A stretch of DNA of 64,000 nt from a bacterium (GTDB lineage Bacteria; Pseudomonadota; Gammaproteobacteria; Burkholderiales; Thiobacillaceae): positions 62,001 through 126,000 of the forward strand of contig WOUQ01000002.1 in NCBI GenBank assembly GCA_009772925.1, given 5' to 3'. The first letter of the stretch is position 1; each line of letters starts with the position of its first letter. Of the stretch, positions 33,031 through 42,065 are shown in pieces. The notes beneath the pieces were generated by a model. That model ran no database searches and was not told the origin of the DNA. It was given only the letters and a program-made list of their open reading frames with translations. The position numbers and the translations under genes were made by a program.

Positions 33031-33288
33031 TCAGGCGGCGAGCAGGGGATCCAGTTCGCCGGCCGCGTCCAGCGCGGAAATGTCGTCGAAGCCGCCGACG
33101 TGACGGTCGCCGATGTAGATCTGCGGCACCGTACGGCGGCCGGTGATGCGGATCATCTCGTCGCGCTGTGCCGGATCGAGGTCGATGCGGATCTTCTCGA
33201 TCTGGCTGACGCCCTTCTTGTTCAACAGCTTCTCGGCCATGATGCAGTAAGGGCATACGGCGGTGCAGTACATCTTCACGGGGGGCAT
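33031..33288 (-). CDS. grxC: Glutaredoxin 3
   Basis: VKMYCTAVCPYCIMAEKLLNKKGV; RRTVPQIYIGDRHVGGFDDI. Confidence 0.95.
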   Translation of the reverse strand: MPPVKMYCTAVCPYCIMAEKLLNKKGVSQIEKIRIDLDPAQRDEMIRITGRRTVPQIYIGDRHVGGFDDISALDAAGELDPLLAA

Positions 33289-33331
33289 TGCGTGTCCTTT
33301 CCAGTGGGGCCGAGAAACCACCTGCTCGCGT

Positions 33332-33742
33332 CTACTTTTCTCTCGGCAGTCCGGCCTGTTCCCAGGCCTGCATGCCGCCGGCCAGGTTGTGCACGTTCTC
33401 GAAGCCGGCCTTGCGCAGCAGGCCGCAGGCGTGCCGGGAGCGGTTGCCGCTGCGGCATACGGCGACGATGGGCTTGTCCTTGAACTTGTCCAGATCGCCC
33501 ATGCGGTTCTTCAACTGGCCGAGGGGCACGTGCTTGGCCTTGGCGATATGGCCGTCGGCCCATTCGGATTGCTCGCGCACGTCCAGCACCAGGGCATCCT
33601 CGTGGTTGAACAGCAACACCGCCTCCTGCGGGCCCACCTGCTTGATGCCCGAGAGCCGGCCGAACAGGCCGCCGCCGAACAACATGAAGCCGGAAACCAC
33701 GACCAGCAGGATGAGCCAGATGTTTTGCAGTACGAATTCCAT
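33332..33742 (-). CDS. Membrane-anchored rhodanese-like protein (YibN-like)
   Basis: N-terminal TM; LVLDVREQSEWADGHI; active loop VCRSGNRS. Confidence 0.92.
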   Translation of the reverse strand: MEFVLQNIWLILLVVVSGFMLFGGGLFGRLSGIKQVGPQEAVLLFNHEDALVLDVREQSEWADGHIAKAKHVPLGQLKNRMGDLDKFKDKPIVAVCRSGNRSRHACGLLRKAGFENVHNLAGGMQAWEQAGLPREK

Positions 33743-34043: not shown

Positions 34044-37000
34044 TCATGCGGCGGCGGACGGCTGGCGGCGCTGCCACAGCAGGTACAGCAAGGGGATCAC
34101 CACCAGGGTCAGCGCCGTCGAGGCGAAGGTGCCGAAGATCAGCGATACGGCGAGACCGCCGAACACCGGGTCGGTGACCATGATCGCCGAGGCGGCGATG
34201 ATCGCCAGCGCGGTGAGCAGGATCGGGCGGAAGCGCACGGCGCCGGCCTCCATCACCGCCTCTTCCAGCGAGTAGCCCTGGCGGCGGTAGTCGAGGATGA
34301 AGTCGATCAGGAGCAGCGAGTTGCGCACCACCACGCCGGCCAGGGCGATGACGCCGATCATCGAGGTGGCGGTGAAGGCCTGACCCATCGCCCAGTGGCC
34401 GGGGAAGACGCCGACCAGGGTGAGCGGGATGGCGCCCATGACGATGATCGGCAGCATGAACGACTTGTAGTAGGCGGTGAGCGTCAGGTAGATCAGCACC
34501 AGGGCGACGATGAAGGCGGAGCCGAGGTCGCGGAACACGTCGAGGGTGAGGCGCATCTCGCCGCCCCACAGCAGCGTGTAATCCACCACATCCTTCGGCT
34601 GCGCCTCGGTGAAGCCGAGGTTGCCGGTGGTGAAGGTGGCGCCGCCGGGCAGGGGCTTGCCGTCCAGCATCTGGTCGAGCGCGAGCACCGCATAGACCGG
34701 GCTGGATTTCAGCATCTCGCCGCCGACCATGACGTTGGCGTGCAGGTCGCGCGCGTGGATCGGCTTCGCCTCCGTTTCCCGCTCCACCGTGGCGATGGCG
34801 GACAGCGGGATCTGCGCGCCCTGCGCGTTGGCGACGCGCAGGCTGAGCAGGGCGGCCGGGTCGGCGCGCTGTGCGCGCGGCAGGCGCACGCTGATGTCGA
34901 TCGGTTCACGCGCGTCGACCACGTGCAGGGTGCCCATCTTGAAGCCGGACACGAAGTCGCGCAGCAGCTTGGCGACCTGCGCCGGAGCGACGCCGGCGAG
35001 CATGGCCTTCTCGGCGTCGACGCGCACGCGGTAGCCGTGGACGTCGGCGGTGACGCTGTCGTCGACGTTGATCAGGCCGTAGACCTGCTCGAAGGCGTCG
35101 CGCACCTCGCCGGCGGCGCTGCGCAATGCGTTGTAGTCGGGTCCGTACAGTTCGGCCAGCACTTGCGAGGGCACCGGCGGTCCGGGCGGCGTTTCGTAGA
35201 TCTTGATGCGCGCCTCCGGATAAGCCGCGCGTACGTCGCGCAGCGCCGTATAGAACTCATCGGCAATTTCGTGCGAGGACAGCGAACGGTCGTGCTTGTC
35301 GCTCAGATTGACGCGGATCTGCGCCAGGTTTTCGCCGCGCTTGAGCATGTCGCCGCGCACCAGGGCGGCGAAGTCGATGGGCGCGGCCATGCCGACGAAG
35401 GCCTGGTAATCGGCCACCTCGGGGTGGCGCGCCAGGGTATCACCCAGGGCGCGGGCGACGCCGTCGGTGGCGGCCAGCGCGGTGCCGGCCGGCATGTCCA
35501 CCTGCAGCAGCATGGAGTTGGTGTTGTCGTTGGGCAGCATCTTCAGCTCGACGCCCAGCGGCGACAGCGGTCCGTTCATGCCGGCGGGACGCATGAACTG
35601 CCAGGCCGGCATGAGCATGGCGCCGATCAGCAGGCCGAGCACCACCAGGAAGAGCAGGTTGCGCTTGGCCGCGCTCTCCATCAACGGACGCGCCACCGCC
35701 AGATACATGCGGCGCAGCGGATCCGCCTCGGCGTGGCCGTGGTCCTCCAGGCTTTCCCGCTTCTCCATCTCGCGCAAGGCCTTGCCGCGCAGCGCCCGGC
35801 GCGCCGCCCAGGGCACCACCGAGTAGGCGATGAGCAGCGAGGCCAGCATGGCCACCGGCACGTTGATGGGAATGGGCCGCATGAAGGGGCCCATCATGCC
35901 GGTGACGAAGGCCATCGGGATGAAGGCGAGGATCACCGCCAGGGTGGCGACGTTGGTGGGGTTGCCGATCTCGTTGGTGGCGTTGACCAGGGTCTTGCCG
36001 AACTCCTCCATCTTCACCTTGCCGTGGTGCAGGTGGCGGTGGATGTTCTCGATGACGACGATGGAGTCATCCACCAGCAGACCCAGCGCGAGGATCAGAG
36101 CGAACAGGGTGATGCGGTTGATGGTCTGGCCGAGCACCAGGCCGACCGCCAGGACGATGAACAGGATGAGCGGGATGGTCAGGGTGACGATGCCCGCCTC
36201 GCGCCAGCCGAGAAACCACCACATCAGCAGGATCACCGTGAAGATGGCGATGCCGAGGTGCTCGACCAGCAGGTTGACGGCGGCGTCGGCGCGCTCGCCG
36301 TCGTCGCGCGTGATGGTCACCTCGATCCCTTCGGGGATGGCCTGGCGCTTGAGATCATCCAGTTTGCCCTGCACGGCGGCGGCGACGTCGACCGCGTTGG
36401 TGCCGGCCTTCTTGGCGATGGCCAGGGTCACCGCTGCCGAGGTACCGTCGCGCGCGGCCTTGCCGGCGGCCGGACCGAAACCGATCCAGGTCGCCTCTTC
36501 CACCTCGGCGCCGCCCTGCTCGACGCGCGCGATGTCACGCAGATACACCGGGCGCCCCTGGGAGACGCCGACGACGATGGCGCCCACCTCCTCGGGACTA
36601 CCCAGGAAACCGTCCAGGCGCAGTGGCGTGGCGCGGTTGTCGCGCGTCAGCGTGCCCAGCGGCGCCGACACGTTGGCGCCGCGCAGGGCCTGGTCGACGC
36701 GGTCAAGGCTGAGGCCGGCGCCCGTCAGGCGCTGCGGGTCGATCCATACGTTGAGGGCCGGCGCACGGCCGCCGATGAGCTGGGTGAACGACACGCCCGG
36801 CGCGTTGCGCAGGTGTTCCAGCAGGCGCGCACCAATCTCGCGCAGGACGCGGTCGTCGTGCTCGCGCGAACTCAGCGTGACGGTCAGGATGGGCACGTCG
36901 TCGACGTTGATCGGCTTGATGATGGGCTCGTTGGCGCCGGGCGGAATGCGATCCATGTTCTGCACGAGCTGGTTGTAAAGCTTCACCAGGCTCTGTTCCT

Positions 37001-37331
37001 GATCCTCGCCCACCTCGAACTGCACGGTGACCACGCCGTAGTCGTTGGCCGCGTAGCCATAGCTGTGGTCGACGCCGGACTGGGCGTGCATGATCGCCTG
37101 CAGCGGCTTGACGATCAGGTTGTTGACCTCCTCGGCGGAGGCGCCCGGCTTGGTGACGACGATGTTGGCCGCCGGCACCACGATCTGCGGGTTGTATTCG
37201 CGCGGCGTCAGGCCCAGCGCCAGCATCCCCAGCATGAACAGGCCGAGGATGACCAGGGGCGTGATCTTGGATTCGAGGAAGGCGTCGGCCAGCTTGCCGG
37301 CGATGTTGATCTGCGAACCATTCATGGACAT
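34044..37331 (-). CDS. RND efflux transporter permease subunit (AcrB/MexF superfamily)
   Basis: 1095 aa; two TM bundles; TPREYNPQIVVPAANIVVTKPGASAEEVNNLIVKPLQ; GLLVDDSIVVIENIHRH. Confidence 0.95.
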   Translation of the reverse strand: MSMNGSQINIAGKLADAFLESKITPLVILGLFMLGMLALGLTPREYNPQIVVPAANIVVTKPGASAEEVNNLIVKPLQAIMHAQSGVDHSYGYAANDYGVVTVQFEVGEDQEQSLVKLYNQLVQNMDRIPPGANEPIIKPINVDDVPILTVTLSSREHDDRVLREIGARLLEHLRNAPGVSFTQLIGGRAPALNVWIDPQRLTGAGLSLDRVDQALRGANVSAPLGTLTRDNRATPLRLDGFLGSPEEVGAIVVGVSQGRPVYLRDIARVEQGGAEVEEATWIGFGPAAGKAARDGTSAAVTLAIAKKAGTNAVDVAAAVQGKLDDLKRQAIPEGIEVTITRDDGERADAAVNLLVEHLGIAIFTVILLMWWFLGWREAGIVTLTIPLILFIVLAVGLVLGQTINRITLFALILALGLLVDDSIVVIENIHRHLHHGKVKMEEFGKTLVNATNEIGNPTNVATLAVILAFIPMAFVTGMMGPFMRPIPINVPVAMLASLLIAYSVVPWAARRALRGKALREMEKRESLEDHGHAEADPLRRMYLAVARPLMESAAKRNLLFLVVLGLLIGAMLMPAWQFMRPAGMNGPLSPLGVELKMLPNDNTNSMLLQVDMPAGTALAATDGVARALGDTLARHPEVADYQAFVGMAAPIDFAALVRGDMLKRGENLAQIRVNLSDKHDRSLSSHEIADEFYTALRDVRAAYPEARIKIYETPPGPPVPSQVLAELYGPDYNALRSAAGEVRDAFEQVYGLINVDDSVTADVHGYRVRVDAEKAMLAGVAPAQVAKLLRDFVSGFKMGTLHVVDAREPIDISVRLPRAQRADPAALLSLRVANAQGAQIPLSAIATVERETEAKPIHARDLHANVMVGGEMLKSSPVYAVLALDQMLDGKPLPGGATFTTGNLGFTEAQPKDVVDYTLLWGGEMRLTLDVFRDLGSAFIVALVLIYLTLTAYYKSFMLPIIVMGAIPLTLVGVFPGHWAMGQAFTATSMIGVIALAGVVVRNSLLLIDFILDYRRQGYSLEEAVMEAGAVRFRPILLTALAIIAASAIMVTDPVFGGLAVSLIFGTFASTALTLVVIPLLYLLWQRRQPSAAA

Positions 37332-37356: not shown

Positions 37357-38418
37357 TCAGGCGCCGGCCTTGTCGCCGGATTCCAGCTGCTCCAGGGCGC
37401 CGCCGGTTACGACGCGCTCGCCGGCGGCAAGTCCCGCCTGCACCTCGACCGCGCCGTCCTGGCGGGTACCGGCGCGCACCATGCGGAAACGCGCGATGCC
37501 GTCGGCGCCGACCACGAACACACCCTCGATGCCGGCCCGACGCACCAGGGCGGCGGCCGGCACCGTCAGCACCTCGCGTTCGCCGGCGGGGAAGAGGACG
37601 CGCGCGAACAGGCCGCTCTTCAGGCCGGCGCCGGCGATGTCGAGCTTGACCAGGAAGGTGCGGGTGACCGGATCGGCGGCGGGCGACACGCGCGCCAGGC
37701 GGGCGGACAGCGGGCGCTCCTGGCCCTCCACCTCGACCAGAATCTGCGCGCCGGGCTTGAGACCACCCAGCACCGGTTCGGGAACCTGGGTCTCCACCTG
37801 AAGGCGGCCGGGATTCTCCACCACCAGCACCGGACGTCCGGGCGCCGCCAGATCGCCCGCGTGCGCCAGCTTGCGCGTGACCACGCCGGCGATGGGCGAG
37901 GTGACGCTGGCGTAGCGCAACTGGCCGGTGGCGGTGTCGAGCCCGGCGCGGGCCTGGTTCAGACGGGATTCGGCGATGTCGTGCTGCAGCTTCATCTTTT
38001 CGAACTGCTGGCGGGTGACCGCCTCTTCCTTGTACAGGGCCTCGAAGCGCTTGTACTCCAGGCTGGCGTCGGCCAGCGCGTCCTCGGCCTGCTTGACGCC
38101 GGCGCGGGACTGCTGCACCTGGCCCTGCAGATCGACGGGATCGACGCTGAACAGGCGCTGCCCGACTGCCACGCTCTGTCCTTCTGCCACGTCGATGGAA
38201 CGGATGTAACCCATCAGGCGGGAAGCCACCTGGACCTGCTGTTCCGCCACCAGCGTGGCGGGCGCGGGCTGATAGGCGGCGACGCGCAGGAGCGCCGCCG
38301 GCGCGGTTTCCACCGGCACGACGCGCGGCGCGGCGGCCTGGCCGGAGGCCGGGTCCTGGTTGCCGCAGCCGGCGAGGAGCGCAGCGATAAAAAGGGAAAT
38401 GGGCAATTGTTTCAACAT
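37357..38418 (-). CDS. RND periplasmic adaptor (membrane fusion) lipoprotein
   Basis: LLAGC lipobox; VQVASRLMGYIRSIDVAEGQSVAVGQRLFSVDPVDLQGQVQQSRAGV. Confidence 0.93.
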   Translation of the reverse strand: MLKQLPISLFIAALLAGCGNQDPASGQAAAPRVVPVETAPAALLRVAAYQPAPATLVAEQQVQVASRLMGYIRSIDVAEGQSVAVGQRLFSVDPVDLQGQVQQSRAGVKQAEDALADASLEYKRFEALYKEEAVTRQQFEKMKLQHDIAESRLNQARAGLDTATGQLRYASVTSPIAGVVTRKLAHAGDLAAPGRPVLVVENPGRLQVETQVPEPVLGGLKPGAQILVEVEGQERPLSARLARVSPAADPVTRTFLVKLDIAGAGLKSGLFARVLFPAGEREVLTVPAAALVRRAGIEGVFVVGADGIARFRMVRAGTRQDGAVEVQAGLAAGERVVTGGALEQLESGDKAGA

Positions 38419-38431
38419 GGTCCGATCCCCA

Positions 38432-39778
38432 TCAAAGTTGGTCCAAATCCAGCAGGCCGGCGGCGTGCAGCACCTGCCCGCGGCTCACCGAAAGGTCGAA
38501 GCGCGCGGTGGCCAGGTCGGCGCGCGCCCGGTCGAGCAGCGTCTGCGCGGAAAGCAGGTCGACCAGGGTGGTGACGCCGTTCTCGTAGCGCAGCTTGGTG
38601 AGGCGCTGCACCTCCTCGGCCTCCCTCGCCGCCTCCTCGCGCGCCGCCAGCCGCTCTTCGGCCTCCAGCGCGCGGCGGCGCGCCTCGGTCAGGCCGAAGA
38701 TGACGCCATCCTCGGCCTGGCGCAGGCGCGCGACCTGCTCCATGCGCGCCGCCTGGGCTCGGTCAATGGCAGCGTTGTTGGAGCCGCCATCGAACAGATT
38801 CCACGACACGCTGCCACCCAGGGTGTAGGACGAGGCATCGAAGCCGAGATTTTCGTCATTCCAGTCCTGGCGTGCCATGACGTTGACCTGCGGCAGCTTG
38901 GCGCCCCGCGCGGCCAGTGCCGCGGCCTGCATCGCCTCGACCTGGGCGCGCAAGGCGCGCAGCCCGGGATGCGTGGCCAGGGCCTGCTCGCGCAACGACT
39001 CCAGGCCACCCTCCGGCAATTTCAGCCGCGCTTCGTCGCCCACATCGACCGTCTCGGCGAGACCGCGGCCCATCAGCAGCTTCAGACGGTCCAGGGCGGT
39101 GGCCTCATGGCGCCGTGCTTCGCTGACGCGCAACCGGGCGTTCTCCAGATTCACCCGCGCCGACAACACATCGCTGCGCACCGCCATGCCCTGCTTGTGC
39201 AGATTGCCGGCGGCGCGCGCGTATTCCGTCGCGGCCGCCTGCGCCCTTTCGCTGACGCGCAGGTTGGCGCGGGCCAAATGCACGCCCTGGTAGGCCTCCA
39301 GCACGTCCAGCAGCACGCTCTGCCGCGCCGCCAGATCGCCGTCGCGGGCAGCGCGGGCGTAGGCGCGGGCCTCATCCTGACGAGCGCTGATCTGGCCGCC
39401 GCTATAGACGGGAGCGGTGACCTCGACACGGCTATTGAAATTGCTTATTGATGAAGGGTCGTTCAGCGTCGCCGGATTGAAATCCGACGCCTTGATCCGT
39501 TCCTGCCCCAGCCTCAGGCCAAAAGCGGCGAGGGGGTCATTGGTCTGCGTGGCATTGAGGGAAACGGTGACACGCGGCAGACGCGAGCCATCGACCTGAC
39601 GTGTTCCCGCCTCGGCCTGCGCCACCCGCGCCTGGCTGGCCGCCATGTCGGGGTTGCCCGCCAGCGCGGCCTCGGCCGCCCGACGCAGAGTCAGGGTCTC
39701 CGCCGCCGCCACGCCCCAGGCCAGGGCCAGGGCCAGGCTGACGGCGAGCATGTTGCCGATCAATCGTGCAATCCGCAT
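38432..39778 (-). CDS. TolC family outer-membrane efflux protein
   Basis: Signal peptide; LTLRRAAEAALAGNPDMAASQARVAQAEAGTRQVDGSRLPRVTVS. Confidence 0.93.
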   Translation of the reverse strand: MRIARLIGNMLAVSLALALAWGVAAAETLTLRRAAEAALAGNPDMAASQARVAQAEAGTRQVDGSRLPRVTVSLNATQTNDPLAAFGLRLGQERIKASDFNPATLNDPSSISNFNSRVEVTAPVYSGGQISARQDEARAYARAARDGDLAARQSVLLDVLEAYQGVHLARANLRVSERAQAAATEYARAAGNLHKQGMAVRSDVLSARVNLENARLRVSEARRHEATALDRLKLLMGRGLAETVDVGDEARLKLPEGGLESLREQALATHPGLRALRAQVEAMQAAALAARGAKLPQVNVMARQDWNDENLGFDASSYTLGGSVSWNLFDGGSNNAAIDRAQAARMEQVARLRQAEDGVIFGLTEARRRALEAEERLAAREEAAREAEEVQRLTKLRYENGVTTLVDLLSAQTLLDRARADLATARFDLSVSRGQVLHAAGLLDLDQL

Positions 39779-39819: not shown

Positions 39820-39837
39820 TATTAGAGGACGCTAATA
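39820..39837. promoter_or_regulatory. Inverted repeat in the RND operon promoter
   Basis: TATTAG-aggacg-CTAATA, perfect 6-bp arms, 6-bp spacer. Confidence 0.5.
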
Positions 39838-39852
39838 TTAAAGATAAAATAA

Positions 39853-39870
39853 ACTTATGGCAAGATAAGT
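39853..39870. promoter_or_regulatory. Second inverted repeat in the RND operon promoter
   Basis: ACTTAT-ggcaag-ATAAGT, perfect 6-bp arms, 6-bp spacer; center 33 bp from the first. Confidence 0.5.
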
Positions 39871-40035: not shown

Positions 40036-40350
40036 TTATTTGGCAAAGGCACAGAAGACGTCGCGCATCATGCCTATGAGTTGCAGGGTACGGGTGTCAC
40101 CCACGCGGTAATAGACACGGTTCGCGTCCTTGCGCGTGCGCAGTACTCCCTTGTCGCGCAGGATGGCGAGGTGCTGCGAGATGTTGCTCTGGGAGGTGCC
40201 GACATTCTCGACGATGTCCTGCACGCTCACCTCCTTGTCCCCGAGCACGCAGAGTATCTTCAGCCGCAGGGGGTGCGACATGGCCTTGAGGGCCCGTGAC
40301 GCCTGCTCGATGTGTTCGTCCTTGTCGATGAGTTCAATGGACTCGGTCAT
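40036..40350 (-). CDS. ArsR-family repressor, YgaV/BigR/SqrR-like (candidate persulfide sensor)
   Basis: ALKAMSHPLRLKILCVLGDKEVSVQDIVENVGTSQSNISQHLAILRDKGVLRTRKDANRVYYRV...MMRDVFCAFAK; only two Cys (34 and 100); no ELCVCDL metal motif. Confidence 0.9.
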   Translation of the reverse strand: MTESIELIDKDEHIEQASRALKAMSHPLRLKILCVLGDKEVSVQDIVENVGTSQSNISQHLAILRDKGVLRTRKDANRVYYRVGDTRTLQLIGMMRDVFCAFAK

Positions 40351-40439: not shown

Positions 40440-40455
40440 AGTATTCAAATATACT
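40440..40455. promoter_or_regulatory. Inverted repeat between arsR-family gene and gpmI
   Basis: AGTAT-tcaaat-ATACT, perfect 5-bp arms, 6-bp spacer. Confidence 0.4.
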
Positions 40456-40502
40456 AAAATACCGAGCGAAATTTACGTCCTGAATAAAGATAAAATAGAC
40501 CG

Positions 40503-42065
40503 ATGCCGAATCATCCCGCCGTCAAGCCCGTTCTGCTCCTCATTCTGGACGGCTTCGGCTGCCGCGAACCCGACCACCACAACGCCATCGCCCTGGCCCG
40601 CAAGCCGAACTGGGACCGGTTGTGGAACACCTATCCGCATACCCTGATCCAGGCCTCGGAAGCGGCGGTCGGCCTGCCCGCCGGACAAATGGGCAACTCC
40701 GAGGTGGGACACCTCAACATCGGCGCGGGTCGCGTGGTGTACCAGGAATTCACGCGCATCGACCGCGCCATCCAGGAAGGTCATTTCGCCGGCAACATGA
40801 CGCTGCTGGACGTCATCGATCAGGTCAAGCGGCGCGACTCCACCCTGCACCTCTTCGGCCTGTTGTCCGACGGCGGCGTGCACAGCCATGAGAACCACTT
40901 CCACGCCATGCTCGGCATGGCGGCGCAGGCCGGTCTGCGCAATGTGTACGTGCACGCCTTCCTGGACGGTCGGGATACGCCGCCGAAAAGCGCGGAAGCT
41001 TACCTGCGTTGTTTGCAGGACAAGGTCGACGGCCTCGGCGTGGGCCGCATCGCCTCCATCGTCGGCCGCTACTTCGCCATGGATCGGGACCGCCGCTGGC
41101 CGCGGGTCAAGCTCGCCTATGATCTGTTGACCCTGGGCCACGCCGAATTCAGCGCGCCTTCCGCCAATCTCGGCCTGGAAATGGCCTATGCCCGGGGCGA
41201 GACCGACGAATTCGTCAAACCCACCGTCATCACACCGGCCGGCGAGGCGCCTCCGCGCATGCGCGACGGCGACGCCGTGGTGTTCATGAACTTCCGTTCC
41301 GACCGCGCGCGCCAGTTGACGCGGGCCTTCACGGCGCCGGACTTCGCCGAGTTCGAGCGGGAATACGTGCCGCAACTCTGCCGCTACTGCACGCTCACCA
41401 GCTACAGCGAGGAATTCGACCTGCCGGTGGCCTTCCCGCCGGACCGGGTGCGCAACGGCTTCGGCGAATACATCGCCAACCTCGGCCTGCGCCAGTTGCG
41501 CATCGCCGAAACCGAGAAATACCCGCACGTCACCTATTTCTTCAACGGCGGCGAGGAAACCGTCTATACGGGCGAAGACCGCATCATGGTGAAGTCGCCG
41601 CCGGTCGCCACCTATGACCTGAAGCCGGAAATGAGCGCCTTCGAGGTCACCGACAAACTGGTCGAGGCCATACTCAGCCGTAAATACGACGCCATCATCT
41701 GCAACTTTGCCAATACCGACATGGTCGGCCACACCGGCATCCTGGAGGCCGCCATCCAGGCGGTGGAAGCGGTGGACGTCTGCATCGGCCGGGCGGTCGA
41801 GGCCATGCAGTCGACGGGCGGGGAAGTGCTGATCACCGCCGACCATGGCAATGCGGAAACCATGCTGGATCCGCTCACCAAGCAGCCCCACACGGCGCAC
41901 ACCACCAATCTGGTGCCCTTCGTCTACATCGGCCGCGCCGCCGACATGCAGGACAGCGGCGCCCTGGAAGACATCGCCCCCACCCTGCTGAGGATGATGG
42001 GCCTGCCACAGCCGCCGGAAATGAGCGGCCACCCACTCATCCACTTCAGGCATTCGCCGGACTGA
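40503..42065 (+). CDS. gpmI: 2,3-bisphosphoglycerate-independent phosphoglycerate mutase
   Basis: KPVLLLILDGFGCREPDHHNAIALARKPNWDRLWNTYPHTLIQASEAAVGLPAGQMGNSEVGHLNIGAGR. Confidence 0.97.
   Translation: MPNHPAVKPVLLLILDGFGCREPDHHNAIALARKPNWDRLWNTYPHTLIQASEAAVGLPAGQMGNSEVGHLNIGAGRVVYQEFTRIDRAIQEGHFAGNMTLLDVIDQVKRRDSTLHLFGLLSDGGVHSHENHFHAMLGMAAQAGLRNVYVHAFLDGRDTPPKSAEAYLRCLQDKVDGLGVGRIASIVGRYFAMDRDRRWPRVKLAYDLLTLGHAEFSAPSANLGLEMAYARGETDEFVKPTVITPAGEAPPRMRDGDAVVFMNFRSDRARQLTRAFTAPDFAEFEREYVPQLCRYCTLTSYSEEFDLPVAFPPDRVRNGFGEYIANLGLRQLRIAETEKYPHVTYFFNGGEETVYTGEDRIMVKSPPVATYDLKPEMSAFEVTDKLVEAILSRKYDAIICNFANTDMVGHTGILEAAIQAVEAVDVCIGRAVEAMQSTGGEVLITADHGNAETMLDPLTKQPHTAHTTNLVPFVYIGRAADMQDSGALEDIAPTLLRMMGLPQPPEMSGHPLIHFRHSPD

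Follow-up and report, generated by a model that had tools for sequence, protein, structure and literature searches.

Predicted control of RND efflux and sulfur trafficking by a probable sulfane-sulfur-responsive ArsR repressor in a Thiobacillus-like bacterium

The arsR gene (40036–40350, minus strand; start ATG 40350–40348, stop 40038–40036) encodes a 104-aa winged-helix protein of the ArsR/SmtB family. It is the regulator of the system described here, and we conclude that it is probably a repressor that responds to sulfane sulfur and controls both RND efflux and sulfur trafficking, acting through predicted operators of the form ATTAG-N6-CTAAT. Coordinates refer to the window, the whole 64-kb stretch of DNA that was analysed, unless another contig is given. 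The host genome (3.2 Mb) is Thiobacillus-like, and its named relatives are Hydrogenophilus and Thiobacillus assemblies. An earlier note had assigned the protein to the persulfide sensors of the YgaV/BigR/SqrR/HlyU type and proposed that it responds to reactive sulfur; the assignment holds, and the functional proposal probably does too.

The ArsR protein and its relatives

The open reading frame contains exactly two cysteines, as the earlier note had read. Cys34 lies in α2 (LKILC; codon 40249–40251, minus strand) and Cys100 in α5 (VFCAFAK; codon 40051–40053, minus strand), 66 residues apart, and both align with the sensor cysteines of BigR, SqrR and HlyU. The metal motif of ArsR is indeed missing: α3 reads EVSVQDI, without a CxC. 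The family assignment is clear from PF01022 (HTH_5; 47.9 bits, cut-off 22), and NF033788, an HTH_metalloreg-type model, is also above its cut-off (88 bits versus 55). The NCBIfam BigR equivalog model NF040642 gives only 80.5 bits against a cut-off of 155, and we therefore regard the protein as a relative of BigR, not as BigR. Its best PDB relatives by sequence are BigR (1e-18), YgaV, HlyU, NolR and SqrR; metal sensors score far below the BigR-type proteins (SmtB, 5e-8). Between the two cysteines the alignment with BigR (3pqj), HlyU (4k2e, 3jth) and SqrR (6o8k) is free of gaps. The spacing of 66 that had been claimed for BigR, SqrR and HlyU thus holds; YgaV has one extra residue (67).

An AlphaFold2 model built from 45 orthologues was poor (pLDDT 53, pTM 0.36), probably because the orthologues are too similar to each other. 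Viral contigs were scanned for diverse ArsR relatives that could enrich the alignment, and almost none were found. A wide Cys–Cys distance in such a model would in any case argue only weakly against persulfide sensing, because the two cysteines of reduced BigR are > 9 Å apart (PMC4330345).

Orthologues (E ≤ 1e-25) are present in 182 of 369 sampled genomes of the host's class, about half, and they are mostly 70–85% identical, an unusually high level for this family. None of the 123 distinct orthologous proteins first collected departs from the two cysteines or from the recognition-helix core, QSNISQHL. A further 16 orthologues, more divergent (58–75% identity), all keep the pair, with a spacing of 66 except for one that has an insertion (67). 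Judged from these alignments, the conservation of the pair is not due to chance. Four genomes of only 1.0–1.1 Mb (L297, L298, L301, L302) retain arsR, with a perfect site upstream of arsR itself; the regulator therefore survives genome reduction.

In a maximum-likelihood tree the orthologues form a single clade (support 100/99), which groups with BigR, SqrR, HlyU, YgaV and NolR (99/95) and stands apart from SmtB, CzrA, NmtR and the host genome's own ERCVCDL-type ArsR. The RSS sensors do not form one clade exclusive of NolR, and because the branches are long the exact branching order among them is uncertain. The earlier note had named phylogeny as a test of its assignment, asking whether the protein would fall among metal sensors; the tree places it with the RSS sensors instead and, together with the invariant cysteines, supports the persulfide-sensor subfamily. 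The protein has sequence and genomic features expected of the RSS (persulfide) sensors (SSN cluster 4: BigR, SqrR, HlyU, YgaV): a Cys pair in α2 and α5 some 66 residues apart, a closer relation to characterized RSS sensors than to metal sensors, and a link to sulfurtransferases, dioxygenases or sulfur transport, here through rhodanese and glutaredoxin neighbours and an operator-like site before rhd-tusA-dsrE2. The host genome encodes no other Cys-pair ArsR: its two further ArsR proteins are the ERCVCDL arsenic type and an ArsR-rhodanese fusion.

The locus and its operator candidates

The tripartite RND operon that had been noted beside arsR is indeed there, on the same strand. It comprises an outer-membrane efflux protein of the TolC family (OMF, 38432–39778, minus), the first gene of the predicted target operon, a periplasmic adaptor (RND membrane-fusion protein, MFP; 37357–38418, minus) and a 1095-aa AcrB/MdtB-like permease (34044–37331, minus). 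With these three components encoded together, this is an RND system of the drug type (HAE); the permease matches MdtB/AcrB best, and its TM4 contains VDDSIVVIE, the Asp-Asp motif that characterizes drug-type pumps. Downstream of the RND gene are two genes that were overlooked before, encoding a YibN-like rhodanese-domain protein (33332–33742, minus) and glutaredoxin 3 (33031–33321, minus). On the other side, gpmI (phosphoglycerate mutase; 40503–42065, plus) is divergent from arsR; it is a flanking gene and not a proposed target.

Most loci in the class have a divergent gpmI followed by arsR, the rhodanese gene and the glutaredoxin 3 gene. Within the Thiobacillus-like group the OMF-MFP-RND operon sits between arsR and the rhodanese gene, and at other betaproteobacterial loci the same place is taken by a different MFP-RND pair (26–33% and 36–41% identical). 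Different pumps within one conserved gene order indicate that the RND genes are insertions and that the ancestral partners of arsR are sulfur/thiol proteins. It is misleading to say that the pump stands here ‘instead of’ the sulfur genes usually found: rhodanese and glutaredoxin are the ancestral neighbours, the predicted regulon includes sulfur-trafficking genes, and in one relative (L170) a site precedes a persulfide-dioxygenase-like gene, with the gene for a YgaP-like rhodanese behind it. The adjacency of such regulators and RND genes is as such already known, since the survey by Li et al. (2025) records both rhodaneses and RND pumps in the neighbourhood of ArsR regulators that respond to sulfane sulfur (PMC12423496).

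Upstream of the OMF gene lies a perfect palindrome, TATTAG-N6-CTAATA (39820–39837), whose core ATTAG-N6-CTAAT (39821–39836) is our operator candidate. With at most one mismatch, the core occurs once in the window (0.09 expected). It overlaps the −10 element (TAATAT, 39840–39835) of a predicted σ70-like OMF promoter (39835–39863, minus; −35 TTGCCA, 39863–39858); such promoter predictions numbered two, versus 0.4 expected. An operator-like palindrome over a predicted promoter supports control of the adjoining RND operon by the protein. A second perfect palindrome, ACTTAT-N6-ATAAGT (39853–39870), covers the predicted −35 element. Its CTTAT..ATAAG core is conserved in many Thiobacillus OMF promoters, with its centre 33 bp from that of the operator candidate, and it could serve as an additional binding site or belong to another regulator.

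The arsR promoter holds a further operator candidate, TTTAG-N9-AT (40443–40458, minus; TTTTAGTATATTTGAATACT), which is conserved in Thiobacillaceae. It is only a half-match to the palindrome, in the form of the NolR consensus (A/T)TTAG-N9-A(T/A) (PMC12445080) and of the footprinted HlyU operator, which also contains TTTAG-N9-AT. The NolR consensus matches the window three times, always in the two promoters beside arsR: on both strands of the 39821–39836 palindrome and at 40443–40458. Such half-matches occur in 65/127 arsR promoters versus 17 in shuffles. The full palindrome (≥ 9/10) is found in only 9/127, so that the evidence for autoregulation is weaker, and general autoregulation through the full palindrome was dropped. 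At gammaproteobacterial loci (e.g. L034, L035, L038) the arsR promoters share a different element, approximately TTATTATTGTATAATGTTT, which the ATTAG palindrome does not explain.

Distribution of the sites and alternative readings

Sites were sought by pattern search, and promoters were counted as positive at a match of ≥ 9/10 to ATTAG-N6-CTAAT. OMF promoters carry such a site in 29/38 cases (shuffles, 0.26), the second, different RND type in 22/23, and loci without an RND pump in 0/12. In 23 genomes of the genus TATTAG-N6-CTAATA occurs 31 times, compared with one copy of the reversed control. Besides OMF, the recurrent target in the genus is rhd-tusA-dsrE2, a sulfur-carrier operon encoding a rhodanese, TusA and DsrE2. 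Its promoter has the site in 29/35 cases (shuffles, 0.27), mostly 13–35 bp before the rhd start; in the host genome, which is among them, the site (G000:C62:1699–1714) ends 22 bp before it. The same palindrome at this operon supports a sulfur role for the protein. The host genome also has a one-mismatch copy before ATP sulfurylase (L151). In single relatives the site is upstream of a secreted rhodanese (L183) and a DsrC-like gene (L186), and in the wider class it precedes an SQR-like gene (L275), a rhodanese with DUF4395 (L269), YgaP-type membrane proteins (L276, L284), a PhsA-like molybdoenzyme (L283) and OMF genes (L258, L259). Against the sulfur reading, several sites in the class genomes stand before genes with no obvious sulfur role, for instance those for inorganic pyrophosphatase and an acetolactate-synthase-like protein.

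Two further observations concern individual loci. The site recurs before a small secreted protein (L158, L164, L184, L189) and a membrane protein (L153, L173, L176, L188), neither of a known family; these genes are candidates for new sulfur genes. At one locus (L292, genome G052) a perfect copy of ATTAG-N6-CTAAT lies 85 bp upstream of the matched start of a BigR-like paralogue (38% identical), which an RND adaptor gene adjoins on the opposite strand. The operator form is the same there; the regulator and the pump are different.

Could the protein instead form a Cys34–Cys100 disulfide upon thiol oxidation in general, by H2O2 or disulfide stress, so that the pump belongs to an oxidative-stress response? 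A Cys pair is also able to form a disulfide, an earlier proposal saw a redox switch in the oxidation of the HlyU cysteines (PMC4330345), and in one relative (L182) the site precedes an AhpC/TSA peroxiredoxin gene. However, the operon predicted as the main target is devoted to sulfur carriers, the peroxide sensors form a separate ArsR cluster with their cysteines in α3, and HlyU does not react with H2O2 or GSSG (PMC10509353). We consider this reading unlikely, although it is the strongest of the alternatives.

A slightly less likely possibility is that another transcription factor binds ATTAG-N6-CTAAT and that the arsR product controls something else. The pairing of site and regulator is a prediction from sequence, and the host genome encodes the ArsR-rhodanese fusion as a second regulator that could be considered (225 aa, without the α2 cysteine; contig C30, L003:1081–1758, minus); a quarter or so of the sampled class genomes have such a fusion. 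Across the 369 genomes, those with an orthologue have 1.40 sites versus 0.18 controls per genome, a 7.7-fold excess, compared with 0.44 versus 0.16 where there are only other ArsR matches and 0.32 versus 0.22 where there is no ArsR match at all (permutation P of about 5e-5, with genomes uncorrected for shared ancestry). The excess follows the orthologue and not the fusion: it is 1.31 versus 0.21 in genomes with the orthologue only, 0.10 versus 0.10 in those with the fusion only and, near the control level, 0.36 versus 0.21 in those with neither. The fusion is therefore disfavoured as the binder. Moreover, the sites adjoin arsR before two unrelated RND types, and their form fits NolR and HlyU, which have the recognition-helix core SQS..SQHL in common.

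The closeness of NolR in sequence and operator, without a Cys pair, would suit a regulator that has no chemical switch and in which the cysteines are structural; this is very improbable, given that no orthologue examined, even at 58% identity, lacks either cysteine. A metal- or arsenic-responsive ArsR controlling a metal-export RND pump, as the superfamily and the HTH_metalloreg score might suggest, was rejected as the least credible reading, because the tree separates the protein from the metal sensors, it has no CxC in α3 or other known metal site, and the permease is of the drug type.

Proposed mechanism and known systems

Our preferred reading remains a sulfane-sulfur-responsive repressor, with DNA binding, persulfide signal and tetrasulfide chemistry modelled on HlyU, BigR, SqrR and YgaV. 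The protein would be a dimer whose reduced form binds the ATTAG-N6-CTAAT palindromes overlapping the promoters of two operons, OMF-MFP-RND beside arsR and rhd-tusA-dsrE2 elsewhere in the genome, as well as the related half-perfect site before arsR, and so would block RNA polymerase. Oxidation of sulfide or thiosulfate would raise cytoplasmic persulfides, which are expected to form a polysulfide (tetrasulfide) bridge between Cys34 and Cys100 within one protomer. The bridged repressor would then leave the DNA, and rhodanese, TusA, DsrE2 and the RND pump would be produced. The pump may export surplus sulfur compounds or molecules modified by them; our guess is excess sulfane sulfur or thiol compounds that it has modified.

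More tentatively, and at slightly less than even confidence, we suggest that sulfane-sulfur trafficking has this protein as a core regulator, with a sequence that has hardly changed across sulfur-oxidizing beta- and gammaproteobacteria, that it acts through ATTAG-N6-CTAAT on rhd-tusA-dsrE2 and other sulfur genes, and that two different RND pumps came under its control independently. If so, RND export would be part of the persulfide response. Little is known of how Thiobacillus-type sulfur oxidizers sense internal sulfane sulfur and induce its carriers; the analysis offers predictions on this point, with a named regulator, an operator of 16 bp and a few targets, and the tie between RND efflux and reactive sulfur is now predicted at the level of a motif, beyond adjacency.

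Among the known systems, HlyU (Vibrio cholerae, V. vulnificus) has the same Cys positions, a SQSxxSQHLA recognition helix and an operator element like that of the arsR promoter, and it forms a tetrasulfide with persulfides (PMC10509353). It differs in being an activator at hlyA, on its own branch of the tree, and is not linked to gpmI, rhodanese and grx or to an RND operon. BigR (Xylella, Agrobacterium, Acinetobacter), the best PDB match with the same Cys spacing, is a sulfide-responsive repressor of sulfur genes (PMC5823870), but adjoins Blh (a rhodanese-dioxygenase) and the transporter TauE. SqrR (Rhodobacter capsulatus) shares the Cys pair and the fold; its recognition site, as quoted in PMC9774250 (ATTC-N8-GAAT), differs from ATTAG-N6-CTAAT, and its recognition helix is less similar. 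YgaV (Escherichia coli) shares the Cys pair and the pattern ALLKAMSHPxRLxILC...SQHLAxxRDxG, but has the longer Cys spacing and ygaP as a neighbour, and according to the tree is not an orthologue. NolR (Sinorhizobium) has the operator consensus form and the helix SQSALSQHL, but lacks the Cys pair and controls nodulation genes. sHdrR and SoxR of Hyphomicrobium denitrificans are likewise ArsR proteins and sulfane-sulfur-responsive repressors of sulfur oxidation; they are alphaproteobacterial and target sox and shdr, and the part of PMC12423496 that we draw on describes no ATTAG-N6-CTAAT regulon for them. The kind of regulator is thus known; what is new is the operator candidate, the sulfur-trafficking regulon predicted with it and the way in which RND pumps have repeatedly come under it.
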